52,867 nucleotides of DNA from Alphaproteobacteria bacterium. Lineage in GTDB: Bacteria; Pseudomonadota; Alphaproteobacteria; UBA2966. The stretch is from contig JABIFY010000157.1 in the NCBI GenBank assembly GCA_018650465.1, positions 1-52,867 on the forward strand, written 5' to 3'. The notes under the pieces are model-generated. The model did not search any database and was not told the origin of the DNA. It worked only from the letters and a program-made list of their open reading frames with translations. Both the position numbers and the translations under genes were made by a program. Positions 1 through 15,229 of this stretch are shown in pieces. Each line of letters opens with the position of its first letter. Position 1 is the stretch's first letter.

Positions 1-123
1 CATTGTTCTAGGTCAAATGTTTATCACACAATTTCTCCTGGACCAATATTCGGCCTAACTGCTGGTCGTCCAAAAGCCAGTAGTCTTTATTGTGAAGTTC
101 GTGGTGTGACACACAAAACGATT

Positions 124-145
124 TGTCCGTTTTGGGTCAACAATC
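124..145 (+). repeat. Flanking direct repeat, left copy
   Basis: TGTCCGTTTTGGGTCAACAA and two more bases match the copy at 1637-1658 at 19 of 22 positions. The two copies bracket the DmdA-like gene in the same orientation. Similar 'TGTCCGCTTTTGGGT' words are common intergenic repeats in alphaproteobacteria, so this may be a dispersed repeat rather than a mobile-element end. The rest of 1-380 shows no gene that I can support. Confidence 0.5.
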
Positions 146-380
146 ACCGTTTTTGACCATGTCAGACCACGTCCGTTCCACCCCGCATAACGGACTATCT
201 GGCAAAAAATGTCCGGTTAGCGCTTCATAGCGGAAGTAAATTGGCAGTGGTAGAATGGTCTGAATCTAGCCAGGAACGGTCATTTTTCTGTATTGATGAA
301 GTCCTGAAAGTCGGTTATTGGCCGGGCGGCTTATATTTGTGGAAACGCAATGCCTGCAGATCGCCGGTGCTTCGATCTTG

Positions 381-1520
381 TTACTTGCCAGGCTGGGGCA
401 TTGGTGTGCCTGGCTCGACTAATGGCTCGGGAACAACTTCGCCTTTGAAGGAACGGCCCTCGCCTTTGAACTCCAGCTTGGTTCCAAGATCAGAAAACCT
501 GCTTTCAAGTAGCGCGAGACCGATGTTTGATTGGCGCCGTGGCGAATGACAAACGGCGCGCACGGTTCCGGCAATACTACCATCAACCCGAGCCACCCAT
601 GGGTGCTCATTGAAAGTGACGGGGTCTCCATCAAACACAATTCCAACCAGTTTTCGTTCTGGCCCTTCTTCTGCGATCCGGGTCAATGCCTGCTTGCCAA
701 CAAATTCGTCGTCCCGGTCCAGATCAATCATTCTCCCCAAACCAAATTCGAAAGGCGAACTATCAGGGAGAGTATCTGCGCTAAATGAGAGCAACCCACT
801 TTCCACACGTTCAATATAGTTTGGTGCACCAGGACCAATGTCGAATGGAGTTCCTGCTTCCTTTACCATATCCCAAAGTGCCGCACCGCGCGTCCCGTCG
901 CACAAATACAATTCATACCCTCCTTGTTTCGACCAGCCCGACCTGGCGACAACCAAAGGAATCCCTTCAATCTCTGTCTGCTTGAACCAAAAGTGCTTTA
1001 AGTCGCGAACCCAATCACCAAACAAATCCGCAACCACTTCAACGGCTTTCGGCCCCTGAATGGCCATCGGGCTCACATCCGGCTCATGCACGGCGACCTC
1101 ATATCCTCTTTCATTTGCAATAGCGCGAACCCACAGCAACATATCACTGTCGGCAATTGAGAACCAAAACTTATGCTCTTCCAGGCGCAGTAATACCGGG
1201 TCATTGAGCAAGCGACCTCCATGGTCGCAGATCGGCACATATTTGCCCCGGCCTATTTCAAGACCCTTTAAATCTCGCGGCGTTAAATACCGAACAAAAC
1301 GCTCGGCATCCGGCCCAATAATCTCAACTTGACGCTGGGCAGCGACATCCCACATCGCAACTCCCTCAAGCAGGCGATTATATTCCGCCGCAGTATCACC
1401 ATATGACACCGGCATATACATCTGATTGTAGATCGTCATGTGGGTGACGCCGTCGGCGACGGTTCGATTAAAGTAAGGAGATTTCCGTTCTCGCGGCCCC
1501 ATCGCAATTTGGAAAGTCAT
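381..1520 (-). CDS. dmdA: DmdA-family (GcvT-fold) folate-dependent demethylase, probable DMSP demethylase
   Basis: The 379-residue protein has the GcvT/aminomethyltransferase fold and closely resembles dimethylsulfoniopropionate demethylase DmdA as I remember it. Shared blocks include MWDVAAQRQVEIIGPDA (about 55-71), TPRDL, DHGGRLLNDPV, EPDVSPMAIQGP, VARSGWSKQGGYELY and IERVESGLLS. DmdA moves a methyl group from DMSP to tetrahydrofolate, giving methylmercaptopropionate, in the cytoplasm. Its length is close to the usual 365-380. The ATG at 1520 has AGGGA eight bases upstream. It reads in the same direction as the satellite genes to its right but is 247 bases away from them, and near-identical 22-base motifs lie on both sides of it. 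Substrate specificity cannot be settled from the sequence: a related GcvT-family demethylase or oxidoreductase partner is the alternative. Whether it belongs to the island is unknown. Confidence 0.72.
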   Translation of the reverse strand: MTFQIAMGPRERKSPYFNRTVADGVTHMTIYNQMYMPVSYGDTAAEYNRLLEGVAMWDVAAQRQVEIIGPDAERFVRYLTPRDLKGLEIGRGKYVPICDHGGRLLNDPVLLRLEEHKFWFSIADSDMLLWVRAIANERGYEVAVHEPDVSPMAIQGPKAVEVVADLFGDWVRDLKHFWFKQTEIEGIPLVVARSGWSKQGGYELYLCDGTRGAALWDMVKEAGTPFDIGPGAPNYIERVESGLLSFSADTLPDSSPFEFGLGRMIDLDRDDEFVGKQALTRIAEEGPERKLVGIVFDGDPVTFNEHPWVARVDGSIAGTVRAVCHSPRRQSNIGLALLESRFSDLGTKLEFKGEGRSFKGEVVPEPLVEPGTPMPQPGK

Positions 1521-1636
1521 ATCTGGTCCCTAGCGCTGATTTCGTTCCAAGTTTCGATTTCCATTACGCCTTGCCAAACCTATATGCAACATTAAAATAC
1601 AGGTGAGCAAAAACAATTTCGATGATGCTTTGGAAA

Positions 1637-1658
1637 TGTCCGCTTGGGGTCAACAACC
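1637..1658 (+). repeat. Flanking direct repeat, right copy
   Basis: TGTCCGCTTGGGGTCAACAA and two more bases match the copy at 124-145. It lies in the 247-base gap between the DmdA-like gene and the ADP-ribosyltransferase-like gene. A second 'AATGTCCG' word occurs at about 1719. Nothing else in the gap is recognisable: there is no copy of the tRNA-Arg 3' end and no gene. Confidence 0.5.
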
Positions 1659-1767
1659 GACCTTTTCAGCTTAACCAATCCACGACCGCTTCACCCCCGA
1701 AAGCAGACCTTGTTGTCCAAAATGTCCGTAAAGTGCGGGTGACCTCAACCGGTCATTAAAACACCAT

Positions 1768-2160
1768 TCAAGCCCACAGTGTTATGGGCGGGGGGCATTT
1801 ACTTCTCACTTCGGTCCAGGGCACTTCTTTGAAATCTTTTATGACTTCTCCCAAGGGGTAGATGTCCTCGCAAACACTCACTTCATATTCCCAGTCGCAC
1901 TCTCCTTCTCCATAAAACGGATCACTGTAGGGTGTCAACGCATACATGTTGTCGAGTAGATCCTCGGCCTTTAAACGAATAACAAATGGAGAGGACGTAT
2001 CTGTCCATGCGCTTAAATTAGCAAAATAGAGGGCTGGCTCATATTTTGAACTCAAACAAACTCGCGGCATATTGGCCGTCGTAGTCCGCAGACAATCTTC
2101 TTCCAATATCTGCTTCAGACGAAGTTTCGACGTACCGTGATACAAAATCATTGATTTCAT
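1768..2160 (-). CDS. Putative ADP-ribosyltransferase-fold protein
   Basis: This 130-residue protein begins with ILYHGTSKLRLKQILEE, the pattern of the first strand and helix of ADP-ribosyltransferase (ART) folds, with a nicotinamide-binding HGT. It continues with CLSSKYEPALYFA, matching the second conserved block, and later WEYEVSV, where ARTs keep a Glu. The overall pattern resembles the KptA/DarT/phage-ART superfamily more than a named family. It lies 25 bases downstream of the terminase nuclease gene and is probably co-transcribed. In a satellite this distal position often holds cargo, so an effector against host, helper or rival phage is possible, but that is inference. The start may be the ATG at 2160 or the third-codon-later ATG at 2151, which has a better-spaced GAAAG. 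No antitoxin is visible. Confidence 0.5.
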   Translation of the reverse strand: MKSMILYHGTSKLRLKQILEEDCLRTTTANMPRVCLSSKYEPALYFANLSAWTDTSSPFVIRLKAEDLLDNMYALTPYSDPFYGEGECDWEYEVSVCEDIYPLGEVIKDFKEVPWTEVRSKCPPPITLWA

Positions 2161-2185
2161 TCTTTCAGTAGTTCTTTTACGTGCG

Positions 2186-2740
2186 CTATTGACGCGTCCG
2201 GTCTGGCCCGATTTCTTGGGTTACTGCCAGCGCCACGGCAATCACCAGGTCGTCATGTTCACACACTCCGTTGAACGTGACATTTCCCCTGTCGGTGAAC
2301 TCGGCCTGAAACGCTCCTAACTCAGCTTTCAGTGCCGCGGTATATGGCAACCCCTCGGCAATCTTCAGAAGTCCACTTTCAAGCGCGACGCTGAGGCCGC
2401 GTAACAGCACCCGCTTAGGCACTCGCCAGATACCGTTAACGCACCTGGTCTCCCGGCCTGACGTGATAGAAACGCCGAATGGCTCAACACCCTTGGCAAT
2501 CAGCATGTCCCTTACGGGCCGCCCAACGCCTGTAGCGTCCATAACAAGGCGGCTACCAAGGAGAGACGCCTGCAAACCTGAAAGGCGCTCCACAACGCCC
2601 GTATAACTTTCCCCCAATGGCACCCGTTCGATATGCCGAAGGTTCAGTTCTCGGTTGTGTGTTTGACGCGGGTCAAATTCAATAACTGCTATTGCCGAAT
2701 AATCGACTGCCTGACCCAAATCCACACCAATCACAAACAT
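2186..2740 (-). CDS. Terminase large subunit nuclease-like protein, intact copy
   Basis: The 184-residue protein has an RNase-H-like fold as in the C-terminal nuclease of large terminases. The three acidic positions are in GVDLGQ (D7), VMDATGVG (D68) and EHDDLVIA (D163/D164). The start at 2740 was chosen because it gives a TGATG overlap with the stop of the upstream paralogue and begins right at the first strand. A longer reading from 2785 is possible but adds an unrelated 15-residue head. It is the last of four coupled packaging genes. Presumed role: cutting concatemeric DNA during packaging, together with the separately encoded ATPase. There are no signs of decay. Confidence 0.7.
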   Translation of the reverse strand: MFVIGVDLGQAVDYSAIAVIEFDPRQTHNRELNLRHIERVPLGESYTGVVERLSGLQASLLGSRLVMDATGVGRPVRDMLIAKGVEPFGVSITSGRETRCVNGIWRVPKRVLLRGLSVALESGLLKIAEGLPYTAALKAELGAFQAEFTDRGNVTFNGVCEHDDLVIAVALAVTQEIGPDRTRQ

Positions 2741-3414
2741 CAGGCCATCCAGGAGAGATTCTGATTGGCGACTTTGCGTTTCCAACCATCGTCAAGGCGG
2801 CGAGGACGAGGCACATTTCTTCCCGCCCTCCAGTTGGCTAGACCGACAGCAAATACAAGGTCATCAAATTCGCCCTCTCGCCAGCTTTCAAGATCGCTAC
2901 CGTTAATGACAGGAGCGCGAAGTTTGAACGCCTGTAGCTCCTTCACCAGCGTCGGCACCAGTTCCAGTTCGCTGGCCATATCCAGCCGGTCGGACTGCAA
3001 TGAAACCTGCAATCCTCCGACAAGCTCCGTTTTTGCCAGACGCCATCCGCTCGTATCGTCGCCATCTTCGTCAGTCCCCGCAGTGATGGCGACCTGAATT
3101 GGCTTCAATCCGGATTCCTTGATGAGCTTGCCAACGCTCCGACCCGTCCCGGTCACGTCAACAACAAGGTCCGTTTGACGTGCCTGTTCCTTGTCCTTCA
3201 GGGCGTCGATACGCTCGGCCAGAAGATCAATCATTTGCGGATAACGTACGTCCATCGGCACGCGCTCCAGATGGCGAAGTCGCAGGGCGTGATTGAAGGG
3301 TTTCCAGTTATCCCGCACCCTTGTCTCCTGTTCCAATATTGCGATTGAAGTGGGCTGCATCATTGAACCAACTGAAACGCCGACAATGTAGTGCGTGCAA
3401 ATATTTCTGTTCAT
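2740..3414 (-). CDS. Terminase large subunit nuclease-like protein, first catalytic Asp missing
   Basis: At 224 residues it is a clear paralogue of the next gene. The order of motifs is the same: GVSVGS (13-17), then RHLERVP, VVDVTGTGRSV (D86), QVAITAG, LQVSLQS and FDDLVFAVGLA (D184/D185). The first strand reads VSVG where the sister has VDLG, so the first metal-binding Asp is Ser14. The protein may therefore be a non-cleaving partner or a structural linker to the ATPase. It overlaps the ATPase stop by ATGA (3411-3414), and its own stop overlaps the next start. It is also longer at the C-terminus, with a basic tail (PRPRRLDDGWKRK). It occupies exactly the place where the nuclease domain follows in ordinary one-piece TerL. 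Confidence 0.68.
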   Translation of the reverse strand: MNRNICTHYIVGVSVGSMMQPTSIAILEQETRVRDNWKPFNHALRLRHLERVPMDVRYPQMIDLLAERIDALKDKEQARQTDLVVDVTGTGRSVGKLIKESGLKPIQVAITAGTDEDGDDTSGWRLAKTELVGGLQVSLQSDRLDMASELELVPTLVKELQAFKLRAPVINGSDLESWREGEFDDLVFAVGLANWRAGRNVPRPRRLDDGWKRKVANQNLSWMA

Positions 3415-4208
3415 GAGACTTCCTCGAACTCCAGGGGTTTAACATTCGTCGAACCGAAGAACAGCGGCTTAACTTCGTCCGTAATTGCGCGGTCAATATC
3501 GGAGGTTCGGAACAACTGATTTGCTGCATCCATGAACTTACATTCGTACTCCTGCAAGAAAGTCCATTCGCCATATGTCCGCCGTTCCTTTTGCAGGTGT
3601 TCTTCTGTAATCCGCGGGCAGTCTTCAGCAGTGACTTCGATACGATCCCAGTCATCGCCGCCGTTCTCCCACGCCTCATAGAAATGCCCACGACGACCGT
3701 TCGGTGTGCTCATCAGGATCAACCTGCCCTGAGACACCGCCAGCATGGGACGGATCGCTATATTGAAGCCGTCGTCAACGAACGCCGCTTCATCTTCGAT
3801 AATCAGGCTCGGCGCACTGAAGCCACGCACGGTGTCAGCCGATCCGGGCAGACAGACGACCCGCGAGCCATTGGAAAGTTCAAAGCTGGTCCGGTTGTCC
3901 TCTTGCAGCTTTAGCCCATTGTTCATGCGCTTGCGAAATTCTGTCACCTTGGAAAACAGCAACGAACTCTGTCGCTGCGACGGGCTGCCCAGTAGCACCA
4001 GCGATCCAGGGGAATATGTTGCTGTGTGAAGGGCCTTGATTGCCGTGGTGGTGCTTTTCCCTGATTGACGGCAGCAATTCAGCAGAACCTGATTTGAGGT
4101 ACTGCGAAGCAGGTTTGCCTGCCAAGGATCAGGTTCAAAGTCGAGTTTATCCTGAGCAAACGTAACCGGGTCCAAAGCGGACAGAAGATCAAGAGCCAAA
4201 CTACCCAT
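3411..4208 (-). CDS. terL: Terminase large subunit, ATPase domain only
   Basis: The ATP-driven DNA-packaging motor domain, 265 residues from the ATG at 4208. Walker A is CCRQSGKSTTTA (about 45-56), Walker B is SLIIEDEAA (134-142), and coupling motif III is LMSTPNGRRG (165-174). Near the end, FLQEYECKF and QLFRTSDIDRAI are typical of the hinge before the nuclease domain, but the protein stops about 25 residues later. Ordinary TerL is 400-600 residues with the nuclease attached; here the nuclease follows as separate genes. The 4208 start overlaps the terS stop by eight bases (ATGGGTAG); the ATG at 4238 is the alternative. It acts in the cytoplasm, docking on a portal, which this island does not encode and a helper phage would have to provide. 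Confidence 0.85.
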   Translation of the reverse strand: MGSLALDLLSALDPVTFAQDKLDFEPDPWQANLLRSTSNQVLLNCCRQSGKSTTTAIKALHTATYSPGSLVLLGSPSQRQSSLLFSKVTEFRKRMNNGLKLQEDNRTSFELSNGSRVVCLPGSADTVRGFSAPSLIIEDEAAFVDDGFNIAIRPMLAVSQGRLILMSTPNGRRGHFYEAWENGGDDWDRIEVTAEDCPRITEEHLQKERRTYGEWTFLQEYECKFMDAANQLFRTSDIDRAITDEVKPLFFGSTNVKPLEFEEVS

Positions 4209-4677
4209 TGCGGCTCTCCAGAGTCCGTAGAGAGTCACTGACGGCTTTTAGAGCACTCGGGTAGGGTTTGAGCGCCAACAGCACTGTAGCACGCACCACG
4301 GCCCATTCATGGGATGTTGAGAAGTCTATCGTGCCGGAGTGCTGAACCTTGTCTGTCAGTTTTCCGAGCAGTTTGGCTTGACCCATTATGGCGTTGACTG
4401 CTGCCGAGCATTGCGCTTTTTCCACAGCCAACTTGCTCACAGCCTCCAGATCCGCCACGAGGCTGTCTACCGTAACATTGTGGCGCTTTTGGTGGGTTTT
4501 TTGAAGCTCAGAAATTCTTGCCGAAATCTTGCCGTTGTCGGTAAGTTCCTTCGCCTTTCGGTTTTCTGTCTCCGGTTTCATATTTTCGCACGAATAAGCC
4601 TGTCGATACGCTGCCGTAGCGTTGCCGGTTTCAATGTAGGCCAGGCAAAAAGCTTCTTGCTTGGGTGTGAGGTTCAT
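4201..4677 (-). CDS. terS: Terminase small subunit
   Basis: Its 158 residues begin with LTPKQEAFCLAYIETGNATAAYRQAY, the N-terminal DNA-binding helix-turn-helix signature of the Terminase_2 family. A helical oligomerisation region follows (about 60-110). TerS recognises the packaging site and passes DNA to the large subunit. In gene-transfer satellites of the PICI type a dedicated TerS redirects packaging to the satellite genome. Here it heads a tightly coupled packaging operon: 24 bases after the RHH gene, and overlapping terL by eight bases. The ribosome-binding site (GGGAAAACC) is weak. The DNA site it recognises is not identifiable by eye. Confidence 0.88.
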   Translation of the reverse strand: MNLTPKQEAFCLAYIETGNATAAYRQAYSCENMKPETENRKAKELTDNGKISARISELQKTHQKRHNVTVDSLVADLEAVSKLAVEKAQCSAAVNAIMGQAKLLGKLTDKVQHSGTIDFSTSHEWAVVRATVLLALKPYPSALKAVSDSLRTLESRNG

Positions 4678-4701
4678 TGTTGGTTTTCCCGGTCCGCTTG
4701 G

Positions 4702-4878
4702 CTAGGCAAGAGTATTGTTGTTTTTGGCGTTCATTGAGCGAAGGCGATACCGCAAACTACCTCGGATAAATTCCGACATGGATTGGCCTTCTTTCGAGGC
4801 AGCCTCCTTCACATCAGAAAGCAACAACGCCGATGCTTTAAACCTGGCCAGTTCGCTAAATTCGGTTGCGGTTCTCAT
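4702..4878 (-). CDS. Small ribbon-helix-helix DNA-binding protein
   Basis: A 58-residue gene, easy to miss because of its size. The sequence fits the Arc/MetJ-type RHH: a strand around RFKASALLL (12-20), helix SDVKEAASKEG (21-31), turn, and helix SMSEFIRGSLRYRLR (33-47). The start at 4878 is preceded by AGGAG nine bases upstream. An overlapping ATG at 4882 leads to a short dead frame. It is the first gene after the predicted promoter at 4916-4944, which abuts the palindrome CGTTACCGGTAACG, so it may autoregulate the packaging operon. Function as a regulator is inference from fold and position. Confidence 0.7.
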   Translation of the reverse strand: MRTATEFSELARFKASALLLSDVKEAASKEGQSMSEFIRGSLRYRLRSMNAKNNNTLA

Positions 4879-4915
4879 TCATTCAATCTCCTGAATTGGC
4901 CTTCTGTTAGCCACG

Positions 4916-4956
4916 ATTATACTTTCGGCCAAGACGGTCTGGCGTTACCGGTAACG
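4916..4956 (-). promoter_or_regulatory. Predicted packaging-operon promoter with palindromic operator
   Basis: A perfect TATAAT lies on the minus strand at 4921-4916. At 17 bases spacing the -35 position reads CGCCAG, far from consensus. Directly upstream, overlapping that -35 by two bases, is the perfect 14-base palindrome CGTTACCGGTAACG (4943-4956). A strong -10 with no -35 next to a dyad is the form of an activator-dependent, or RHH-controlled, promoter. The palindrome also overlaps the stop codon of the gene upstream. Confidence 0.5.
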
Positions 4957-5175
4957 GTTTTTTTTCCAATCTTCGATTGCGGCCCTGATTGCATCTGCAA
5001 TTGCCCTTGGGTTTGAGTTGTCAAAATACAGTCCCGCGTTCGCCAAGGCCTCAAGGTCACCGGCGTCAACCTCAAGCTTCACGCAACAACGGTTTGAGTT
5101 TATCCGTTGTCGATAGGCCTTCTGATTAAGGGCTTTGCGTGTGGGAGTGCGCGACGACATGACCAATAGCCTCAA
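4945..5175 (-). CDS. Small hypothetical island protein
   Basis: I do not recognise the family. From ATG 5160 it is 71 residues; from TTG 5175 it is 76. The sequence is basic at the N-terminus (RTPTRKALNQKAYRQR), followed by CCVKLEVDAGDLEALANAGLYFDNSNPRAIADAIRAAIEDW, which reads like a strand plus two helices, perhaps a small DNA-binding or RHH-like protein. The TTG start would overlap a preceding 42-codon ORF by TTGA, arguing for coupled translation. It sits between the putative origin and the packaging promoter. Confidence 0.6.
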   Translation of the reverse strand: MRLLVMSSRTPTRKALNQKAYRQRINSNRCCVKLEVDAGDLEALANAGLYFDNSNPRAIADAIRAAIEDWKKNRYR

Positions 5176-5300
5176 GCCGAAGCCAGTTTGCGGGCAACGG
5201 CAGGAAGCAGCTGTTCATTCAAACTATCTTCCGGCAACGGCCCGATTTCGAATGTCGTCTTTTTGCCTTCCCAGGCTTTCAGCGTTTTCAGTGCTTTCAA
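5172..5300 (-). CDS. Possible 42-residue ORF
   Basis: Weak candidate. A TTG start at 5300, preceded by GAGAG four bases upstream, opens a 42-residue frame with protein-like composition (KALKTLKAWEGKK, then TFEIGPLPEDSLNEQLLPAVA). Its TGA overlaps the TTG start of the next gene. There is no ATG or GTG start and no recognised family. The run of purines and the tight overlap favour a real gene; the rare start and size argue against it. Confidence 0.3.
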   Translation of the reverse strand: MKALKTLKAWEGKKTTFEIGPLPEDSLNEQLLPAVARKLASA

Positions 5301-5322
5301 AACTCTCTCTTTCAGTTTCTAA

Positions 5323-5381
5323 CCCCTACGTAAAAACGGGGGGTGGCCCCCGAAGGGCCAACCCCCTTACGTAGTAAGGGG
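5323..5381. repeat. Long cruciform-forming inverted repeat
   Basis: Nested inverted repeats: CCCCTACGTAA (5323-5333) pairs with TTACGTAG-taa-GGGG (5367-5381). Inside it GGGGGGTGGCCC (5338-5349) pairs with GGGCCAACCCCC (5355-5366) with one mismatch, leaving a five-base loop. No T-run follows on either strand, so a terminator is unlikely. Together with the TCCGCCA cluster next to it, this looks like part of a replication origin; a packaging site is another option. Confidence 0.6.
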
Positions 5382-5388
5382 GATACAT

Positions 5389-5561
5389 CTCCGCCAGAAC
5401 TTCCGCCAAACCTCCGCCCTTTTTCTGTTTGTTTTCAAAGGCTGATTGTTTCGTCTTCTAACCTCCGCCAACTTCCGCCAGACTTCTCCGCCATGACCTC
5501 CGCCAAATTGTTCTTTAATATCAATGGTCGAATCTGAGCCATTCCGAACCTCCGCCAACTT
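5389..5561 (+). repeat. Eight TCCGCCA direct repeats, candidate iterons/origin
   Basis: Copies of TCCGCCA (one ends in C) start at 5390, 5402, 5413, 5464, 5474, 5487, 5499 and 5551, mostly within (A)CYTCCGCCAAM. Spacings are 10-13 bases inside the groups, and about 51-52 bases separate the groups. One gap is T-rich and could melt easily. The cluster is intergenic, just after the stop of the primase-helicase gene. PICI and P4-like satellites place iteron origins beside their replication gene, so this is the likely origin of the island. Binding by the primase-helicase is inference. Confidence 0.6.
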
Positions 5562-5571
5562 GTGAGGGGTT

Positions 5572-7674
5572 CTAAGAGGGGAAGTTGATCACTTTAAGCC
5601 CTCGCATTTTTGACTTTTTGTTTACCGTCGCTTCCTCCAGGATTCCGTTTTTCATCCAGTCACGCAGATACCCTTTTGCGACCTTTTCAGTCACATCGAA
5701 ATTATCGACTATGACCGGTATGATGTATCTGATTCCACTTTGCGGAGCCGAAGAGTAAGGCGTATTTTTGTCCCATTGATCCCGGACAAGGGAAAGGATT
5801 TCACGAACCTGGTATGTAGACAGGTCCAGTGAAGCCTCGTGCAATGCGATGTCTTTCGGTACAAATGCACCTTCCACCCACTGCATGTAAATCTTCGCTC
5901 CTTTTTGCGCGTAATTTGCCTTCATGCGGGTGAGCAGGCGCATATCTTCGTTGGTGATCCCACCCTCCTCATCGGGAAGATTTGTCAGATACAGGCGTGA
6001 CCTGACGGAGTTATTCCATGCAGTATTTCCGGAAATACCGCTTCCGGATGCCATTCCGGCTACTGAAGGGTGAGCCAACAGCAAGACTGTACTATCTGTT
6101 TCCAAGGTAAGGCGGGCGCATCCTGATTTCAGAAACTGAGTGACATCACTCTTGCTGTTTTCGTTGCCGCCAAACAAGTCCGCTGCGACATCAAGGAGAA
6201 TGAACCCGATGCTATGTTCAAGAGCGTACTCCCTGATTTCTTCATAGAACGGTGTAATTTGACCAGCACTCTTCCCGTCAAATGTCATCATCAGATTGTC
6301 ATGTCCAACCCGTGACCACAGGTGCAGTTTGTCCAAGGCATCGCCAAAACCTTGTTGAAGCGAAATGTCGTTCTGCCGACGATGAACTTCGTCAATGTCA
6401 TCTTCACACAGCACACAGAGAGCGTTGTTTCTTTTGACAGGGACGCCCATGAAATCTTGACCTGCCGCTACATGAGCTGCGAGCTGGTGGGCAAAAATTG
6501 TTTTACCGATTCCACCGTTACCATACAGGATACTGACAGTATTTTCCGGTATCCACTGCTCCATGAGCCATTGCCGGGGTGGTGGAGTGCCTTTGAACGA
6601 AGATGCGAGGATTGGGCCAGGTTCTGCCTTGTGGTCTTGATACTGCTCCGTAAGCGCGTGGTTCGGTTTTTGGATGTTCCATTTCCGCCGACCATCAAGT
6701 ATCGCTCGTTCAATCTCTTGTTTGGTCTGGTCGACGGTATAGCCAGGCATCGTGATTTCCGACGACAGCCGGACAATCTCCTCGTCAGACCAACCGCGAG
6801 ACAGATAATGTCCGACCAACCGGACCGTATTGTTATGCCAAAGCACACCGTCTTTGATGTCTTTCAACAACGTTTCTGGATTGGTTATACCGGTAACGAG
6901 AGAAGTATCATTTACGGTCTTTGCAGCAGGCTCGGCAGCAGTCGCCAAGAGGTTTATCTCCTTACTTCCACGCTCTGAAAAAACCCGGTCAATGTGTTCA
7001 ATCATTAATGACCTAGGTCGGTTGTCCGGAAACCTGTCAATCAGTTGTGTCATTTCCGCAATCCGACCAGGTTTGTGTGGCCAAGCGATAGTGCCAGGCA
7101 ATCGGAGGACGCGGGAAGGGTTTACGACCGTTGGATCACCATTGAAGGTCACACAAATTGCTGAATTAATCCGTCGCATTTCAGCAGGATCATAGACCGG
7201 CTCATCCAGTCGCCAGTGCAGTTGCGCTCTGGTATGTGGGTAATTTCCTGTAACAACAATCGCTGTGGGCTTAATACCAACCTCAGCATAAATGAGGCGG
7301 GCGGCCTCTGTGGCTCCGGCATCATCCAAGTCACAATAAACTGCTGTGAGCGCAAGTATATCTGCGTCTGATCCGCGCTTACTCTTTTCTACAGTGTCAT
7401 GACGCAAAGCCTGGCCGTAATAAACATTCACTCCTTCCACAGAGTTCAATTCGGCTGCTTTTTCAGCCATTTCCTCCAGACAACTGACTTCGTACATCCG
7501 AGCGTGTTTTAACGGGCCGTAGGCATCCGTCCACGCCAGTTCGACGCATCCATTCATCTGATCATTGTACAATCCCTCCAGATGTCTGAGAGCCGTGTCA
7601 GGATCCGGTACCAATAATCGCGATGCAGGGGGACCGACATTTGCTCCATCAATTTCTGAGTGCTGCATCTTCAT
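5572..7674 (-). CDS. Primase-helicase fusion (RepB-type AEP primase plus RecA-like ATPase)
   Basis: A 700-residue replication protein. The N-terminal half is an archaeo-eukaryotic-type primase: YCDLDDAG (113-120) with metal-binding acids, VVTGNYPHTRAQLHWRL (140-156), and NPSRVLRLPGTIAWPHK (185-201). A helical linker (275-335) resembles PriCT regions. The C-terminal half is a RecA/AAA_25 ATPase of RepA helicase type: Walker A GNGGIGKT (385-392), CEDD (423-426), Walker B FILLDVAADL (491-500), then LLLAHPS. The last 80 residues look like a winged helix. It would prime and unwind the island's DNA at the adjacent repeat cluster. The start (ATGA overlap with the upstream small gene) implies translational coupling. 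The protein appears intact, so autonomous induced replication is plausible. Confidence 0.85.
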   Translation of the reverse strand: MKMQHSEIDGANVGPPASRLLVPDPDTALRHLEGLYNDQMNGCVELAWTDAYGPLKHARMYEVSCLEEMAEKAAELNSVEGVNVYYGQALRHDTVEKSKRGSDADILALTAVYCDLDDAGATEAARLIYAEVGIKPTAIVVTGNYPHTRAQLHWRLDEPVYDPAEMRRINSAICVTFNGDPTVVNPSRVLRLPGTIAWPHKPGRIAEMTQLIDRFPDNRPRSLMIEHIDRVFSERGSKEINLLATAAEPAAKTVNDTSLVTGITNPETLLKDIKDGVLWHNNTVRLVGHYLSRGWSDEEIVRLSSEITMPGYTVDQTKQEIERAILDGRRKWNIQKPNHALTEQYQDHKAEPGPILASSFKGTPPPRQWLMEQWIPENTVSILYGNGGIGKTIFAHQLAAHVAAGQDFMGVPVKRNNALCVLCEDDIDEVHRRQNDISLQQGFGDALDKLHLWSRVGHDNLMMTFDGKSAGQITPFYEEIREYALEHSIGFILLDVAADLFGGNENSKSDVTQFLKSGCARLTLETDSTVLLLAHPSVAGMASGSGISGNTAWNNSVRSRLYLTNLPDEEGGITNEDMRLLTRMKANYAQKGAKIYMQWVEGAFVPKDIALHEASLDLSTYQVREILSLVRDQWDKNTPYSSAPQSGIRYIIPVIVDNFDVTEKVAKGYLRDWMKNGILEEATVNKKSKMRGLKVINFPS

Positions 7675-7874
7675 TGGCTGGCCTCCCGGTCACTGGAGTT
7701 GTCACTCACGTCAGCCACAGAAGGCAGTTGTTCAATGAGCAAAGGATAATTGGGTAACTCCAAAACAGGTCTGCGCCAGAAATGCCTTGCGAGAATCGGG
7801 TACTTCGCTGGGTCTAGAGCCACCGGATCTTCAACGGAGTATTTGAAATCAATTTGTGAAGGTGATACAATCAT
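7671..7874 (-). CDS. Small protein coupled to the primase-helicase
   Basis: Unrecognised. It is 67 residues from the ATG at 7874, beginning MIVSPSQIDFKYS and containing YPILARHFWRRPVLELPNYPLLIEQLPS. A GTG at 7910 would give 79 residues. Its TGA overlaps the primase ATG (ATGA, 7671-7674), so it acts at least as the translational gate for the primase. Acidic and Ser-rich at the end. Its start codon lies next to the predicted start of an antisense RNA, so it may be the regulated step in replication control. Confidence 0.6.
   Translation of the reverse strand: MIVSPSQIDFKYSVEDPVALDPAKYPILARHFWRRPVLELPNYPLLIEQLPSVADVSDNSSDREASQ
7843..7871 (+). promoter_or_regulatory. Strong sigma-70-like promoter for an antisense RNA
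   Basis: TTGAAA (7843-7848), 17 bases, then TACAAT (7866-7871), each 5 of 6 to consensus. It points right, against the leftward genes, and no rightward gene follows. An intrinsic terminator lies about 75 bases downstream. Confidence 0.55.
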
Positions 7875-7974
7875 TGTGTGCTTTCTTGATTTTGAATGTT
7901 GGGGAAACACAAAGCGCCGCGATAAGGGATTGCAGTCCCTGCGGCGCTTTTTTTGTGGGTTTTACATATGTCAT
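7849..7974 (-). CDS. Possible 41-residue leader ORF
   Basis: Starts at the ATG at 7974, which overlaps the preceding stop as TGATG, and ends 26 bases inside the next gene. The product is basic (MTYVKPTKKAPQG, then FKIKKAHND). A strong hairpin, read as an intrinsic terminator on the other strand, falls within it, which is unusual for a coding region. It may be a translated leader whose translation matters more than its product, like the Tap leader of plasmid R1. It could also be no gene. Confidence 0.35.
   Translation of the reverse strand: MTYVKPTKKAPQGLQSLIAALCVSPTFKIKKAHNDCITFTN
7878..7954 (+). ncRNA. Candidate antisense RNA opposite the primase-operon leader
   Basis: Bounded by the promoter above (expected start near 7878) and a textbook terminator ending in seven Ts, giving about 77 nucleotides. 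It is antisense to the leader ORF and to the region just upstream of the small gene that is coupled to the primase-helicase. This layout matches plasmid counter-transcribed RNAs (CopA, RNAI type) that limit replication-protein synthesis. The function is inferred from position alone. Confidence 0.5.
7911..7954 (+). terminator. Intrinsic terminator of the antisense RNA
   Basis: Stem AAAGCGCCGC (7911-7920) with GCGGCGCTTT (7941-7950), extended by AGGGA/TCCCT (7925-7929 with 7936-7940) around a six-base loop with a four-base bulge. Seven Ts at 7948-7954. On the opposite strand there is no comparable T-run downstream of the hairpin. Confidence 0.7.
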
Positions 7975-8093
7975 CAAGATGCCGCCTTACCGTCGTTCGT
8001 CCGAAGTTGGCGTCCGCAAACAGGCGACAAGCCACATCTTGAGGTCACCTCGACGGCATCTGGGGCATCTAGTAAAAACGTGTATTGAGTCAT
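7974..8093 (-). CDS. Possible 39-residue ORF coupled to the AlpA-like gene
   Basis: The ATG at 8093 overlaps the AlpA-like stop as ATGA, and the TGA overlaps the next ATG as TGATG. The product (MTQYTFLLDAPDAVEV, then CGLSPVCGRQLRTNDGKAAS) has two Cys four residues either side of a turn, but there is no known family. The two exact overlaps make chance less likely. Confidence 0.4.
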   Translation of the reverse strand: MTQYTFLLDAPDAVEVTSRCGLSPVCGRQLRTNDGKAAS

Positions 8094-8347
8094 TCACCTG
8101 GCACTCCTTGCACGAAACAGTCCAATGTCTTTTGGAAATAGAATCTTCTTCCTCCGACTTTTAGTGATTTTGGACCTCGGCCTTCCAACGCCCACATTGC
8201 CAGGGTTTTCTCGGCTACACCGAGATATTTGGCAGCGTCACGCCTGGTCAATCTGCCATCAGGCAATACTCGCACCCTTACAATTTCTAAACTGTCAGCA
8301 GCCGACCTCATGCCGGCTTGACGTTGACCATGTTCAATAGACATCAT
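8090..8347 (-). CDS. AlpA/excisionase-like MerR-fold DNA-binding protein
   Basis: An 85-residue protein with the helix-turn-helix LTRRDAAKYLGVAEKTLAMWALEG (about 34-57), then the basic wing GPKSLKVGGRRFYFQKTLDCFV. This is the pattern of excisionase/AlpA-type HTH_17 proteins. Such proteins steer excision or switch on replication genes in P4-like elements and PICIs. The ATG at 8347 is preceded by GAGGTG. It is transcribed divergently from the regulator-integrase pair, so the shared 118 bases between them form the likely switch region. It is the first gene of the leftward replication operon. Confidence 0.72.
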   Translation of the reverse strand: MMSIEHGQRQAGMRSAADSLEIVRVRVLPDGRLTRRDAAKYLGVAEKTLAMWALEGRGPKSLKVGGRRFYFQKTLDCFVQGVPGE

Positions 8348-8465
8348 TCACACCTCTTTTTATTGTTGCTGTATACCACAACAGTAAATACAGGACTATT
8401 CCAGCATTGACAAGTCTTTTTTGTCGCGTCATACTCCGACAATAATTCACAGAAAAGGAAATACA
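8348..8465. promoter_or_regulatory. Divergent control region of the island
   Basis: Rightward: TTGACA (8407-8412), 17 bases, CATACT (8430-8435), giving a good promoter for the regulator-integrase pair. The same TTGTCA dyad read leftward has TATTTA at 17 bases, a weak -10, possibly for the AlpA-like gene. An inverted repeat TGTTG-N10-CAACA covers about 8362-8381, a candidate operator. GTG 8466 follows AAAAGGAA. Confidence 0.5.
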
Positions 8466-9143
8466 GTGCCAGAAGAAAAGGCTGTGAAAAAGAAACGGGG
8501 ACGCCCTTCGCTCCCTAAAGGCGAGCGAAAACTAGCTTCATTGGGCTTCAGACCAACCCCTGAGCTGCGTGCGCAGCTAGATAAAGCCGCATCTGCTAAC
8601 GACCGGTCCGTAGCCCAAGAAGTTCAATCCCGCCTTGAAAGGTCTTTCCAGAAAGAAAGTGACTTTGGCGGGGCCGAACTCTTTAGCCTATTCAAAATGC
8701 TGGCAGGTGCAGCCGAGTTGATTGAAGCCAGAACGAAAAAATCGTGGAGTAAGGATTTTGATACTTTCCTAGCCTTTGAAACTGCATGGAAGAAAATTAT
8801 CCAATTCACGCGACCACAAATGCCAACCAAAATGAAACACGATTTCGATGCCTCGGCGAAAGAGAGCACAGAAAGAGCGAAACGCCTTCTCTCTCCTCCA
8901 CCGTCACCGCCTCGCCCGCAAGCCCCACAGTCAAAAGGACTGCTCAACCTACCAGACGTGGACGATGCAGCGTGGGATAGTTACACCCATGAACTAGAAG
9001 TGTGGAAAGCTACGAATCAAGCTGAATTGGCAAATTTCAACACATATTCGGAGGCAATGCGCGAGCACGGAGAGCGGTTTAAAATATTGGAAGAGATTGG
9101 GTCCGATGCAGCCGCTTCAATTTTTCCTCCTCACAAGGAATAA
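8466..9143 (+). CDS. RHH-type regulator with basic N-terminal motif
   Basis: 225 residues from the GTG at 8466, chosen for its good AAAAGGAA site; a TTG at 8421 is less likely. An AT-hook-like KKKRGRPSLPKG (about 8-19) precedes an RHH-like stretch LASLGFRPTPELRAQLDKAASANDRSVAQEVQSRLERSF. A Pro-rich linker (SPPPSPPRPQAPQ, about 140-152) and an acidic, helical C-terminus follow. It probably controls the divergent promoters, as a repressor or activator; this is inference. The integrase starts directly after it, so the two are co-expressed. Confidence 0.6.
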   Translation: MPEEKAVKKKRGRPSLPKGERKLASLGFRPTPELRAQLDKAASANDRSVAQEVQSRLERSFQKESDFGGAELFSLFKMLAGAAELIEARTKKSWSKDFDTFLAFETAWKKIIQFTRPQMPTKMKHDFDASAKESTERAKRLLSPPPSPPRPQAPQSKGLLNLPDVDDAAWDSYTHELEVWKATNQAELANFNTYSEAMREHGERFKILEEIGSDAAASIFPPHKE

Positions 9144-9149
9144 TTGCTC

Positions 9150-10322
9150 ATGGCCCGTCATTTCAACAAATTGACAAGAAAAGCAATTCGAGCACTTCTT
9201 GTTGGCGAACGGATTGCCGAGCACGGCATTATCGCTGAACGACTGGGAGCAGGCGACGTCCGATATTCCGTCAACATCATGGTTGATGGACAGCGGATAC
9301 ACCGCGTTGTTGGCCGAGAAAGCGAGGGAACAACCAGAACCCAGTGCGAAGACTTTGTTGCAGGTGCCAGAAGAGTGGCGAAAGAGCACCGCCTGGGAGA
9401 AATATTGCCGAAGAGGCGGAAAATCCCAATCACTTTTTCATCTGCTTCCGAAGAATATCTTCGGATGCTTCGCGAGAGCAATGGCAAGGATTATCAGAAC
9501 AACCAACAGCATTTACGGCTTCATCTCGTCCCGTATTTTGGGACAATGCAGCCTGTTATGATTACCAAATTCACAATTGAAAAGTATAAGCGTTGGTGCG
9601 GAGAAAAAGGCCTTTCAGAAGGAACAATCAACCGAACTCTGGCCACATTTCGCAGAATGGGTCGACGGCTTTATGAGGAGACAATAATTACCGATCCGTT
9701 TGTACCGGTAAAAATTCCGAGAGAAAAAACTCGCCGGACTTTCGTTCTCTCCCCAGAAGAAGAAGTTCGGCTTATTGAAGCTTCCCTCGGAGACAGCAAT
9801 CCATACATCTGGCTTTTCATCAAAATGGCCTTGGCCACATCTCTACGTCATAGCGAAATTCTTGGAGCAAGCTTTTTAGGCTTCGATCCACAACGGCGGC
9901 GTCTACGTGTCTTAGTGAAAGGAGGTAAATGGAGGGATCAACCTTTACCTCGAAGCATTACAGAAATTCTGATTAGAGAACGCGAGATGACCGCCGATCC
10001 TGATGGCTGGATATTTCCGAACCCACGAACGAAGACGGGGCACTACGATAGAATGGTAAAGGCTTTTAGACGCTGCGTTGTAAAAGCAGATCTAGACCCT
10101 AAAATTGTGACGCCTCACACATTCAGGCATACGGCAATAACACGGCTTGTTGCGGCTGGAGCAGATGTAAAAACGGTTCAGGAGTTTTCCGGACACGAAA
10201 GCATAGAGATGGTCATGAGGTATACGCACAGTCAGGACAGAGCTGTTGACCTTGCACTAGACAAGCTCGAACAGAGAACAGTAGTAGAACTTGCAATCGT
10301 CCAGAAACAGCAAAATCGCTGA
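9150..10322 (+). CDS. int: Tyrosine-family site-specific integrase
   Basis: 390 residues from the ATG at 9150 (a TTG at 9144 is also possible, directly after the upstream stop). The N-terminal half carries an Arm/SAM-like core-binding domain (about 95-185). The catalytic residues are all present: R233 (SLRHSEIL), K260 (VKGGK), H323-x-x-R326 (HTFRH), H349 (SGHES) and nucleophile Y358 (MRYTH). The gene runs towards, and ends 48 bases short of, the tRNA-Arg 3' end. This is the usual placement for an integrase that recombines at a tRNA 3' end, and the enzyme looks functional. Confidence 0.93.
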   Translation: MARHFNKLTRKAIRALLVGERIAEHGIIAERLGAGDVRYSVNIMVDGQRIHRVVGRESEGTTRTQCEDFVAGARRVAKEHRLGEILPKRRKIPITFSSASEEYLRMLRESNGKDYQNNQQHLRLHLVPYFGTMQPVMITKFTIEKYKRWCGEKGLSEGTINRTLATFRRMGRRLYEETIITDPFVPVKIPREKTRRTFVLSPEEEVRLIEASLGDSNPYIWLFIKMALATSLRHSEILGASFLGFDPQRRRLRVLVKGGKWRDQPLPRSITEILIREREMTADPDGWIFPNPRTKTGHYDRMVKAFRRCVVKADLDPKIVTPHTFRHTAITRLVAAGADVKTVQEFSGHESIEMVMRYTHSQDRAVDLALDKLEQRTVVELAIVQKQQNR

Positions 10323-10349
10323 CACGACTTCACAGGAATTACACATATC

Positions 10350-10381
10350 CGGAAACTTAGAGAGGAGAAATGGCGCGCCCG
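10350..10381. other. Inferred attachment site at the tRNA-Arg 3' end
   Basis: The tRNA acceptor and CCA end (10371-10381) with the bases just outside would form the chromosome-proximal att. The complete tRNA is retained, as expected when the element carries the matching 3' sequence. No second copy of this sequence is found between 1 and 9100, so the core length cannot be determined here. Confidence 0.45.
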
Positions 10382-10447
10382 GGAAGATTCGAACTCCCGA
10401 CCCCCAGATTCGTAGTCTGGTGCTCTATCCAGCTGAGCTACGGGCGC
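10371..10447 (-). tRNA. tRNA-Arg(ACG)
   Basis: On the minus strand the acceptor stem GCGCCCG (10447-10441) pairs with CGGGCGC (10381-10375), followed by discriminator G and an encoded CCA (10373-10371). The anticodon stem CCAGA/TCTGG holds loop CTACGAA, anticodon ACG, which after deamination reads CGU/CGC/CGA. The T loop is TTCGAAT. A complete cloverleaf, with the integrase just beyond its 3' end. Confidence 0.97.
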
Positions 10448-11030
10448 GCAGTCAGATAACCGGAAAAACCGGTCATCCGAGGCTGCGGAAACTAATCATA
10501 TCCTGTGGTCAATGCAAGAGGCAGAGCTCATTTCTGTCCAATATATTTGGGTTTTATTCTGTATTAAGGCTGTTTTATATGGCAGACATTGACAAATTCC
10601 TGAAATCTTCTGGTCTAAACGCTGGAAATAGCTTACTAAAAGCGGGTTGTCGCGCCTTTCTCCTTTGGCTAGGATAGCCTCTGAGGAAGCTGGCCTGCCG
10701 GGGAGATGCAAGCCGGTTAGTTTCGAAACAGCCGAAAGCCCACTTTAATCTGAGTGGGATGAAGCGGAAAACGGGATTGACCAAAGCTGGCAACAAGCGA
10801 CGGGAACAAACGAGGGGAGGCCTTAAGCCCCTGTGATACAAGTTAATTGCAGCCTGTTAAAGGCCGCATCCACGGCGGGTATATAGCACCCGATTCGGGA
10901 AATTTGTATCGGGCTTGAGGAAACGAGAATTGCGCGCAGCGCCGATACGATGGGCGAAAATCCAAAGCTGGATAAAAACCCGGAAGTGTTGGCGTCGTAT
11001 ACAGGAATATTTATTAACGGTGTTTGCAGA
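10448..11030. other. 583-base intergenic stretch with a series of hairpins
   Basis: No credible gene. A run of hairpins lies on the plus strand: GGCTA/TAGCC (10667-10679), GGTTAGTTT/AAACAGCC (10715-10733) and CCCACT/AGTGGG (10739-10758). A GGGG...CCCC stem lies near 10816-10835. A TTGACA at about 10588 could be a -35 for rightward transcription, but no good -10 follows. The look is that of a structured RNA, but it matches no family I can name. Confidence 0.3.
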
Positions 11031-12230
11031 ATGGCATTGAGAAAATCATACGGCGCTATCTTTGGCGCGGCTGTTCTTTTGTCCAGTTGCTCCTTTGCCA
11101 CGGATACTCTGTGGCCATCCTTGACGGGAGACGATCCGGCGGGGACAGAAGAGAACCAGGGCGGCCAAGTGCAAATCGCCAAATCAAGTGGCGAAAGAAT
11201 GGCATCGCCAACCTTGAGTGCGGCGGCGCCAAAAGCCATCGCGCCTCGCCCGCTTTTGTTGGGCACAACAAACTTTGCCCAGGCACCTGTCACCCAGGCG
11301 CCTCAAACCGGTACATTTGTCGGTCAAAAAGTCTCACAATTACGTGGCGAACTTGGAAACCTGCGCGGCCAAATTGGTGCCCGAAACACGGTGCTGCAAC
11401 AAATTCGCGCGGGCACAACCCAGAACGCACAGCGTTATCACGGTGTTGTCGCCGCCATCAATTCACGCCTGCAAATTGGCACCACGCCGGGCAATCCGGT
11501 TCTGGTCAGCCAGTGGAATGCGGCCCAGGCCGAGCTTGACCGACTGGGAGCTGACATCGCTTCCATGAACAGCCTGGCAAATGATGTGGCCGCTTCTTCT
11601 GCCATGGCAGCCTTCCTGCTGGAAAGCTCACGCGCTACGTACGGTCTGCAGGGTGCGATCGATGAAGATCATCGCCAGATCGCCATTCTGGAAGACGAAA
11701 CAAATCGTACTGTTGTACTGATTGATCGTTTGTTGAATGAATTATCGGAAGACATCAGCCGCCAGACCGCCTATGTGGGCAACGAGCGTCACAATCTGAC
11801 GACCTTGTCACTGGCAATCAAGAACGGTGAATTTTATGGCCAGAGCCTGACTAACCGGGCTTATTTGTCGGCCACACCGCTCGCTGGCAATGCGCCGGTC
11901 GCTTCCGGCACCAGTTACGCCTCGCAAAACCGTCGTCCACTGGTCGTCATTCGCTTTGACCGCCCGGACGTGCCTTATCAGCAAGCCTTGTATAATGCGG
12001 TATCAAAAGCCATTGAGCGGCGCCCCAACGCGGCCTTCGCCCTTGTCGCTGTGGCCCCGGCACGTGGCACACCAGCTGAGGTTTCTCTGAATACGTCCAA
12101 GGCCAAAAAGAATGCCGATCAGGTGCTGCGCACCTTGACGGAAATGGGCTTGCCAGCCGGTCGGGTTAATCTCTCGGCGACGACAAGTTCAGAAGCATCA
12201 ACCAACGAAGTGCATATCTATATTCGCTGA
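11031..12230 (+). CDS. Lipoprotein with coiled coil and OmpA-like C-terminal domain
   Basis: 399 residues from the ATG at 11031; a longer frame upstream adds an unlikely head before the signal peptide. The signal sequence ends in the lipobox LLSSC (Cys about 18). A coiled-coil segment follows (about 95-150, LRGELGNLRGQIGARNTVLQQI), then a second helical region to about 270. The last 100 residues (VVIRFDRPDVPYQQALYNAVSKAIE, then KNADQVLRTLTEMGLPAGRVNLS) have the OmpA/peptidoglycan-binding topology. Presumed to anchor the envelope to peptidoglycan. A terminator follows. No gene symbol is justified. Confidence 0.75.
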   Translation: MALRKSYGAIFGAAVLLSSCSFATDTLWPSLTGDDPAGTEENQGGQVQIAKSSGERMASPTLSAAAPKAIAPRPLLLGTTNFAQAPVTQAPQTGTFVGQKVSQLRGELGNLRGQIGARNTVLQQIRAGTTQNAQRYHGVVAAINSRLQIGTTPGNPVLVSQWNAAQAELDRLGADIASMNSLANDVAASSAMAAFLLESSRATYGLQGAIDEDHRQIAILEDETNRTVVLIDRLLNELSEDISRQTAYVGNERHNLTTLSLAIKNGEFYGQSLTNRAYLSATPLAGNAPVASGTSYASQNRRPLVVIRFDRPDVPYQQALYNAVSKAIERRPNAAFALVAVAPARGTPAEVSLNTSKAKKNADQVLRTLTEMGLPAGRVNLSATTSSEASTNEVHIYIR

Positions 12231-12280
12231 TCTTTATGCGCTGAACTATATTCGCTGATTAATTTTAGGTACTCACATCA

Positions 12281-12308
12281 AGGGCAGGTCGCAGGACCTG
12301 CCCTTTTT
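12281..12308 (+). terminator. Intrinsic terminator after the lipoprotein gene
   Basis: Perfect ten-base stem AGGGCAGGTC (12281-12290) with GACCTGCCCT (12295-12304), four-base loop, then five Ts. It is 50 bases past the stop. A short direct repeat of CTATATTCGCTGAT lies between the stop and the stem. The rest of 12231-12535 shows only the second terminator. Confidence 0.9.
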
Positions 12309-12461
12309 GTATGGCCGCATGCCCTGTGATTACGGGCAGGCCTTTTCTGACCCATTGCAGGCCACGCCGGATTGTTCAGCGCCCCAAAGCACAGACAGGC
12401 CGAAGACAACCACAGGTCGGAGACAACGACAGGCACAGCCCACCACCACCCGTCGGGCAAA

Positions 12462-12493
12462 GAAAAACCCCGCTGGCGCGAACCAGCGGGGTT
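12462..12493 (-). terminator. Intrinsic terminator after the peptide-binding protein gene
   Basis: On the minus strand AACCCCGCTGG and CCAGCGGGGTT form an eleven-base stem (12483-12493 with 12466-12476) with a short loop, followed by TTTTTC. It ends the leftward transcript of the peptidase and substrate-binding protein genes. Confidence 0.9.
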
Positions 12494-12535
12494 AGTTTTG
12501 TGAGCTGACGTCTTCGTCAGATCAAGTCATCTATC

Positions 12536-14023
12536 TTACTTCCAGGACATGGCAGCAAGGTCGTTGACGAACATCGGTGAGTTGGCCCACACGCCTTGCA
12601 GGCCTTTCCGCATTACAGTGATCTTGGAACCCTGGAACAGGAAACCATTTACAGCATCTGCAGAAATCTTTCGCTGGGCCGCCTGAAGGGCGGCTTTACG
12701 TTCTGCCGGATCCAGAGTGGTATCAGCAATCTTGATGATATCCTGGAATTCTTTGCTGTCGTACTGGAAGTAATATTTCGGATCAGCATATTTACCAATG
12801 TCGTTTGGCTCAACATGCATAACGATCGACAGGTCATAGTTTCTTTTCTTGTAGACCTGATCCAACCACTGAGCCCACTCAACGGGTTCAATTGTTGCCG
12901 TAATACCAACCTTGGCCAGCTGAGCGGCAATAATTTCACCGCCGCGACGGGCATAAGCAGGTGGTGGCAACTTCAGTGAAACAGTCACACCGTTGCCGTG
13001 ACCCGCTTCTTTTAGCAAAGCCTTCGCTTTGGCAGGATTATAGGCAAAATCAGCTGTCAAATCGACATAGGCTGGATTGTGTGGTGCCATGTGGCTGCCA
13101 ATCGGGGTGCCAAAGCCAAACATTGCACCGTCAACAATCGCCTGACGGTCGATCGCGTATGCAACAGCTTGACGAACACGAACATCCGACATGATCTTTG
13201 ACTTGTTGTTCGTCGACAGGATGACTTCACCTTCGGTCGTTCCTACGATCACTTCAAAATCCTTGTCGGCTTTGAACTGATCAACGCTTTCCGGAGATCC
13301 AAAATATGGGAAGAAGTCGATATCTCCGGCACGCAAAGCTGCCATTTGGGCAGACGGGTCACTCATGAACTTGAATGTTACTTTGCTGAGCTTGATAGAA
13401 GCAGGGTCGCGATAGTGCGACTGCTTTTCCAGGGTCACGGAATCACCGCGGACCCACTTGCTTACTTTATAAGGTCCTGTGCCAACCGGATTGGTTTCGT
13501 TTCCTGCAGCTGATTCAGGCCCAACAATAACGGCCGTAGATTCGCCCATTTCGAAGGCCAGATTTGGATTGGCATTCTTGAGGGTGATTTTCACCGTCGT
13601 CGCATCCGGGGCTTCAACCGATGCCATATTGATAAAGCGCTTTTTCCGCTTGTTTGTGCTCTTTTCACCAGCATTACGCTCGTAAGTGAATTTCACGTCC
13701 GCCGAATCAAACGTTGTACCATCCGAAAACTTAACGCCTGAGAGCAATTTGAAGGTGTACACCTTACGGGCTGCGTCCGCAGTCCAACTGGTCGCAAGGC
13801 CAGGGCCAACGGCACCAGCTTCCGAAATCCGGGTCAAGCCTTCAAAAATGTTATAAAGTGCGATCTGACTGATCGCAGCTTCTGCCTTGGTCGTCGGATC
13901 AAGGCCACGTGGTTCAAGTGTCATTCCCAGTGTCAAAGTATCCTTGGCGCTGGCAGCTGCAGGTAACATCCCGACAACCGCCCCCATTCCAATAGCAATA
14001 ATGCCGTACACGCTTTTGCGCAT
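12536..14023 (-). CDS. Peptide-type ABC transporter substrate-binding protein (SBP_bac_5)
   Basis: 495 residues, with a Sec signal peptide ending AAASA (about 26). The body matches DppA/OppA-type binding proteins: TLTLGMTLEPRGLDPTT, NIFEGLTRI, YTFKLLSGVKFSDGTTFDSADVKFTYER, VGTGPYKVSKW, VRQAVAYAIDRQAIVDG. It binds peptides or similar small solutes in the periplasm. No permease or ATPase genes are adjacent, so it must work with transporters encoded elsewhere. It is 24 bases after the P1-family peptidase gene, with GGGAGG as ribosome-binding site. That pairing suggests uptake of a peptide or beta-amino compound that the peptidase then processes. Confidence 0.88.
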   Translation of the reverse strand: MRKSVYGIIAIGMGAVVGMLPAAASAKDTLTLGMTLEPRGLDPTTKAEAAISQIALYNIFEGLTRISEAGAVGPGLATSWTADAARKVYTFKLLSGVKFSDGTTFDSADVKFTYERNAGEKSTNKRKKRFINMASVEAPDATTVKITLKNANPNLAFEMGESTAVIVGPESAAGNETNPVGTGPYKVSKWVRGDSVTLEKQSHYRDPASIKLSKVTFKFMSDPSAQMAALRAGDIDFFPYFGSPESVDQFKADKDFEVIVGTTEGEVILSTNNKSKIMSDVRVRQAVAYAIDRQAIVDGAMFGFGTPIGSHMAPHNPAYVDLTADFAYNPAKAKALLKEAGHGNGVTVSLKLPPPAYARRGGEIIAAQLAKVGITATIEPVEWAQWLDQVYKKRNYDLSIVMHVEPNDIGKYADPKYYFQYDSKEFQDIIKIADTTLDPAERKAALQAAQRKISADAVNGFLFQGSKITVMRKGLQGVWANSPMFVNDLAAMSWK

Positions 14024-15210: not shown

Positions 15211-15229
15211 GGGTTCAAATCGACGAGAA

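Follow-up and report, generated by a model that had tools for sequence, protein, structure and literature searches.

Phage satellites described so far redirect the packaging motor of a helper phage or bring head and motor together. Phage-inducible chromosomal islands (PICIs) use the helper's large terminase subunit, TerL (PMC10690885), and P4 depends on the helper's terminase, which packages it at cos sites, with Sid resizing the capsids (PMC10690885). Capsid-forming PICIs (cfPICIs) add genes for capsid, protease, portal and connectors and require nothing but tails from the helper (PMC10690885). Primases are lacking in MulchRoom and MiniFlayer, which do have capsid genes (PMC10690885, PMC10803314), and phage-inducible chromosomal minimalist islands (PICMIs) have no identifiable packaging genes and are located next to fis (PMC10803314). 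Here we describe an element integrated at a tRNA-Arg gene of an Alphaproteobacteria bacterium, in the left part of contig JABIFY010000157.1 (52,867 nt in full; hereafter, the window). We found that it encodes TerS, a TerL ATPase and a TerL-type nuclease and, in its sequenced part, no shell gene; it is probably a tRNA-integrated phage satellite that has its own complete packaging motor and borrows the shell of a helper.

From right to left, the gene order is tRNA-Arg, integrase, Arc-like protein, AlpA/Xis-like protein, primase-helicase, iterons, ribbon-helix-helix protein, TerS, TerL ATPase and two nucleases, as follows (profile matches in parentheses).

10371-10447, minus strand: tRNA-Arg (ACG), found by ARAGORN; its 3' part, about 10371-10417, is the attachment (att) core and the right end of the insertion.
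9144-10322, plus strand: tyrosine integrase of 392 aa (Phage_integrase 3.3e-28; phrog_1 4.8e-59).
8421-9143, plus strand: protein of 240 aa with an Arc-like DNA-binding domain, a probable regulator (Arc 2.1e-5; phrog_795 8.8e-8).
8090-8347, minus strand: AlpA/excisionase-like helix-turn-helix protein of 85 aa (HTH_17 1.2e-5, just under the curated cut-off; phrog_66 excisionase 1.2e-4).
5572-7674, minus strand: primase-helicase of 700 aa, a RepB-primase-like part with an AAA_25 helicase (AAA_25 5.8e-36; RepB_primase 0.0018; phrog_906 9e-29).
5326-5561, no strand: probable replication origin, made up of a hairpin (5326-5376) and direct TCCGCC(A) iterons (5386-5557).
4702-4878, minus strand: ribbon-helix-helix protein of 58 aa (RHH_1 0.0048, below the curated cut-off).
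4201-4677, minus strand: terminase small subunit TerS of 158 aa (Terminase_2 3.5e-13, residues 3-85), with the C-terminal tail of the split-TerL group.
3411-4238, minus strand: TerL, ATPase half only, 275 aa (Terminase_6N 4.5e-14; phrog_7579 8.5e-62; T4 gp17 structures 1.8e-11).
2740-3414, minus strand: TerL-type nuclease, paralogue 1, 224 aa (phrog_27743 2.8e-20).
2186-2785, minus strand: TerL-type nuclease 2, 199 aa, catalytic Asp residues kept (phrog_27743 3e-32).

A first-pass annotation of the window had named an integrase adjoining tRNA-Arg, an AlpA-like protein, a primase-helicase, a repeat cluster, terS and a terL ATPase gene, and each of these is borne out by the matches above. The repeat cluster is real, with 7 copies of TCCGCCA within 5390-5557 versus 18 on the plus strand of the entire 52.9 kb, and the neighbouring hairpin is strong (DNA fold z -5.3).

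This gene set overlaps with those of several described systems. PICIs of the Staphylococcus aureus pathogenicity island (SaPI) type are likewise integrated and carry an integrase, Xis, their own primase and origin and, in some, TerS, whereas the window element has its own TerL ATPase and nuclease in place of reliance on the helper's TerL. It shares TerS, TerL, integrase and replication genes with cfPICIs, but capsid, protease, portal and connector genes are absent from its sequenced part, the gap at its left end being unread. PICMIs are also small marine satellites with integrase and replication genes and without capsid genes; unlike them, the window element lies at tRNA-Arg and has a terminase. 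With P4-like elements it has in common an integrase, an AlpA-like regulator and a primase-helicase; it differs in its terminase, and no Psu, Delta or Sid family is among its Pfam and PHROG matches. Hence, the sequenced element fits none of the PICI, cfPICI, PICMI and MulchRoom/MiniFlayer types, and on the best reading it stands between TerS-only PICIs and capsid-forming PICIs. Virion-encapsidated integrative mobile elements (VEIMEs) and tycheposons are marine integrative elements too, found in virions or at tRNA genes with diverse gene sets, and the gene set of the window may already have been described within those collections. Outside the satellites, tailed phages with a split TerL (viral contigs such as L030, L036 and L086) have the same two-gene TerL ATPase and nuclease and the same TerS tail, with portal and capsid downstream.

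The ATPase gene carries the expected motifs (Walker A CRQSGKST, Walker B LIIEDE and an STP motif). Since Pfam matched the nucleases weakly, these were tested separately by profile and by fold. We found that a 38-row profile of the nuclease family matches the crystallised G20c/P74-26 TerL nucleases at 4.6e-14, and that the AlphaFold model of 2186-2785 (mean predicted local distance difference test score, pLDDT, 90.8) has only TerL nucleases as its best PDB neighbours. Of the two terminase-nuclease genes claimed in the first pass, both stand as members of the phrog_27743 family, 2186-2785 also by its fold and kept Asp residues; 2740-3414 has lost a catalytic Asp, as weighed below. Tandem nuclease copies, both with the Asp retained, are also present in pSR31, L034 and L038, and we rejected the duplication as a hallmark on these grounds.

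The C-terminal tail of the window TerS recurs in the open reading frame (ORF) that precedes TerL, across phages and satellites, and TerS relatives, that of L219 among them, differ by eye from the window TerS in how their N-termini begin. This pattern fits an exchange of the DNA-recognition end and retention of the motor-side end, as judged from the protein sequences and with the roles of both ends putative.

For the shell, we found no match to portal, capsid, tail or lysis families among the island proteins scanned against Pfam, PHROG and NCBIfam (all but a 79-aa ORF at 7671-7910), and no genes for autonomous particle formation were seen in window 1-10447, which is the sequenced part only. The earlier claim that the island has no capsid, portal, tail or lysis gene therefore holds for the sequenced island, and its left end lies in an assembly gap. 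We compared 28 distinct phage contigs in which ATPase and nuclease are separate genes: in 26 of them, no more than 2.2 kb lie between the nuclease and the start of the portal (median 0.63 kb). The 2.2 kb that follow the last nuclease of the window hold just an orphan ORF and a DmdA-like gene, without a structural gene. In addition, the Phage_portal profile, which covers one portal family only, had no match in the whole genome and matched in 4 of 14 control genomes. Since the motor is complete and no shell gene is present in the sequenced part, the element probably fills empty shells made by another phage with its own DNA.

The first-pass annotation placed the left boundary of the island at 1768, which proved wrong. 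No second att copy turned up when the window itself was searched; instead, a second copy of the 3' part of tRNA-Arg (49 bp) is on another contig, C65, at 11563-11611 and 90 bp from the contig end. A DNA search with the right flank of the window located an empty site in the congener G003 (a query with the kinase region matched mainly paralogues). There, the C65 genes (CoA ligase, Lrp and radical SAM) are directly beside tRNA-Arg, the island is absent, and the other side is the right flank, with the gene corresponding to window 10950-12230. Since G003 joins the C65 genes, tRNA-Arg and the right flank without the island, C65 and the window contig flank one insertion. Hence, the insertion takes in the whole of window 1-10370, continues into an unassembled gap beyond position 1 and ends with 90 bp on C65, so that window 1-1767 is inserted DNA too, and the element shows the site-specific integration between att repeats of a satellite. 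No contig overlaps the C65 tail at the gap edge, and the window start gave just a 75% repeat match on contig C115.

Two further genes lie in this left part.

1768-2160, minus strand: orphan ORF of 130 aa, function unsupported (no match in any library).
381-1520, minus strand: DmdA-like aminomethyltransferase (NF009133 2.8e-118; 395 bits versus a cut-off of 410).

The orphan ORF had been called ADP-ribosyltransferase (ART)-like, which found no support: it has no Pfam, PHROG, NCBIfam, phage or PDB match, and its single-sequence model is unusable (pLDDT 32). The DmdA-like gene, of the dimethylsulfoniopropionate demethylase family, is absent from the congener G003 and from two other genomes of the family, G001 and G002, and either is cargo of the satellite or belongs to a second insertion. 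Similar intergenic repeats in the same orientation lie one on each side of it, at 124-290 and 1637-1745 (TGTCCGNTTNGGGTCAA...), and one of them is the source of the 75% match on C115.

We searched other genomes with profiles of the nuclease and ATPase families and found that the motor-without-shell arrangement is real and recurrent. Within the host family, TerL is present in this genome only, out of 7. Complete absence from other genomes, which would have spoken against the first-pass proposal, is not what we found: there are complete elements, circular plasmids and similar archaeal loci. Two elements, L216 and L019, are complete, each within one contig and between 51-bp att repeats. L216 (10.4 kb, at tRNA-Val) has two integrases, an antirepressor, primase, TerS, TerL, nuclease and an excisionase, and a PHROGs scan of it gives nothing structural. 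L019 (15.2 kb, at tRNA-Gly) has an integrase, a resolvase, a protein of replication-protein size, the terminase, an M78 peptidase and a patatin and SMODS cyclase pair, with nothing structural among the ten proteins scanned. Hence, the proposal of a replicating element that has a full terminase but lacks a container gains from complete capsid-less relatives and from the lack of a structural gene in the 2.2 kb past the terminase; the left end of the window copy itself is unassembled.

Five further loci are from Pseudomonadota. In L217, L218, L219 and L221, a tRNA gene is accompanied by genes for primase, TerL, nuclease and integrase, with portal or capsid not found; exact tRNA att repeats were not found in these four and their ends are not fixed. 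The fifth, L220, shows the core on a contig that is short. Methanogenic archaea of the Methanomicrobiales have loci (L013-L015) with a large replication protein, TerS, TerL of about 60% identity and nuclease. Circular Salinibacter ruber plasmids (pSR11, L165; pSR14, L166) carry a primase, a split terminase, ParA and a tape-measure-like protein without a portal or capsid match, and the circular virus-catalogue contig L102 is similar to them. Along with pSR31, these plasmids share primase, TerL ATPase and a separate nuclease with the island, portal and capsid not being found; unlike it, they are episomal and have ParA and a tape-measure-like gene. Where it treats them, the Salinibacter genome paper notes terminases on small plasmids without proposing satellites (PMC6060240).

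Several of these loci hold additional genes. In L019, a patatin phospholipase is beside a SMODS/DncV-like cyclase (14636-16851), a pair resembling the cyclic-oligonucleotide-based antiphage signalling system (CBASS) and thus defence cargo, which known satellites also carry, and the element also has a second ribosomal protein L7/L12-like gene (8582-9109). The tRNA-Asn element L218 has a phosphoadenosine phosphosulfate reductase-like gene (7072-8052; phrog_424 1.2e-61), and L013 has a head maturation protease gene (11700-12578; 2.6e-25) without portal or capsid. Tape-measure-like genes are at 7132-9018 in L165, 9641-11467 in L166, 12441-13832 in L102 and 8976-13295 in L168 (pDJL3); these calls are weak to moderate PHROG matches or existing annotation, with no capsid or portal match on the plasmids, which are possibly satellites that set tail length. 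The Rhodobacteraceae plasmid pSC52_1 (L170) has an integrase, a DUF4055 protein, TerL and nuclease at 4739-13406; DUF4055 is a family we take to be portal-like, so L170 perhaps has a portal without a capsid.

Split ATPase and nuclease genes are not special to satellites, as many phage contigs with portal and capsid have them. In TerL trees built by a quick maximum-likelihood method, which have many weak forks, the capsid-less rows need at least 4 changes by well-supported branches alone; hence, capsid-less elements appear to have arisen more than once from the split-TerL phage group, and a single origin was not supported. Two clades are firm at 99%, that of Salinibacter and that of Methanoculleus, and their coherence argues for maintenance rather than chance remnants.

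Several results weigh against a satellite with its own motor. The left end is unassembled across a gap of unknown size, in which portal and capsid genes may exist. The first catalytic Asp, present in 37 of the 38 rows of the nuclease alignment, is Ser in 2740-3414, so this copy is probably inactive. The window TerL falls in no firmly supported clade, and a viral-contig collection scanned with the primase and integrase gave no close relative of the window element. Packaging, induction and the helper are inferred, not observed. One alternative is a prophage or its remnant: a split-TerL phage integrated here would have lost its structural genes or have them in the gap, and the terminase would be a leftover or a normal phage part. 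The gap of unknown size, the altered nuclease, the scatter of capsid-less elements among phages in the TerL tree and the occurrence of the same split terminase in many portal- and capsid-bearing phage contigs are in keeping with this explanation, and L200 may be such a remnant (a lone terminase-nuclease at 9234-9809 among chromosomal genes of G366, its profile match containing one TGA). We consider it unlikely, as the core genes of the island are intact and overlapping and its att sites intact, the genome has no Phage_portal match, the portal seen within 2.2 kb of the nuclease in nearly all related phage contigs is missing here, and complete capsid-less elements of the same make-up occur in unrelated hosts.

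A role other than packaging for the terminase genes, such as concatemer resolution, interference with phage packaging or plasmid upkeep, seems very improbable. Plasmid forms with ParA do exist, and a probably dead nuclease could compete with that of a phage; but TerS, ATPase and nuclease stay together, in an order that does not vary between hosts, and such roles have no obvious need for a translocating ATPase and a TerS bearing the group's C-terminal tail. We therefore prefer the satellite with its own motor, for which packaging into the procapsids of a helper is predicted from gene content. The broader proposal is a widespread, cross-domain satellite class with a complete split motor (TerS, TerL ATPase and TerL nuclease), a replication module and no shell, arisen repeatedly from one split-terminase phage group. 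Its members, some of them islands and others plasmids, would exploit the procapsids of helpers in Pseudomonadota, Salinibacter and methanogens; we judge this proposal about evenly balanced between right and wrong.

In the cycle we propose for the window element, a helper phage would trigger excision through the integrase and the AlpA/Xis-like protein, and the primase-helicase, starting at the iteron origin, would replicate the circle to give concatemers. The N-terminal domain of TerS would bind the element's own packaging site and its C-terminal tail recruit the TerL ATPase, roles suggested by the layout of the protein. The separate ATPase and nuclease would then cut the DNA, dock on the helper portal and fill the helper procapsid, with portal, capsid, tail and lysis provided by the helper. 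This helper would probably be one of the split-TerL phages sharing the terminase, or a phage portal-compatible with them.

If this is true, a foreign terminase docks on a helper portal in nature, and the specificity of motor for portal becomes directly testable. The element would supply the intermediate between TerS-only satellites and those that form capsids, and satellites of its kind would extend to archaea and to small plasmids that are now filed as ordinary.

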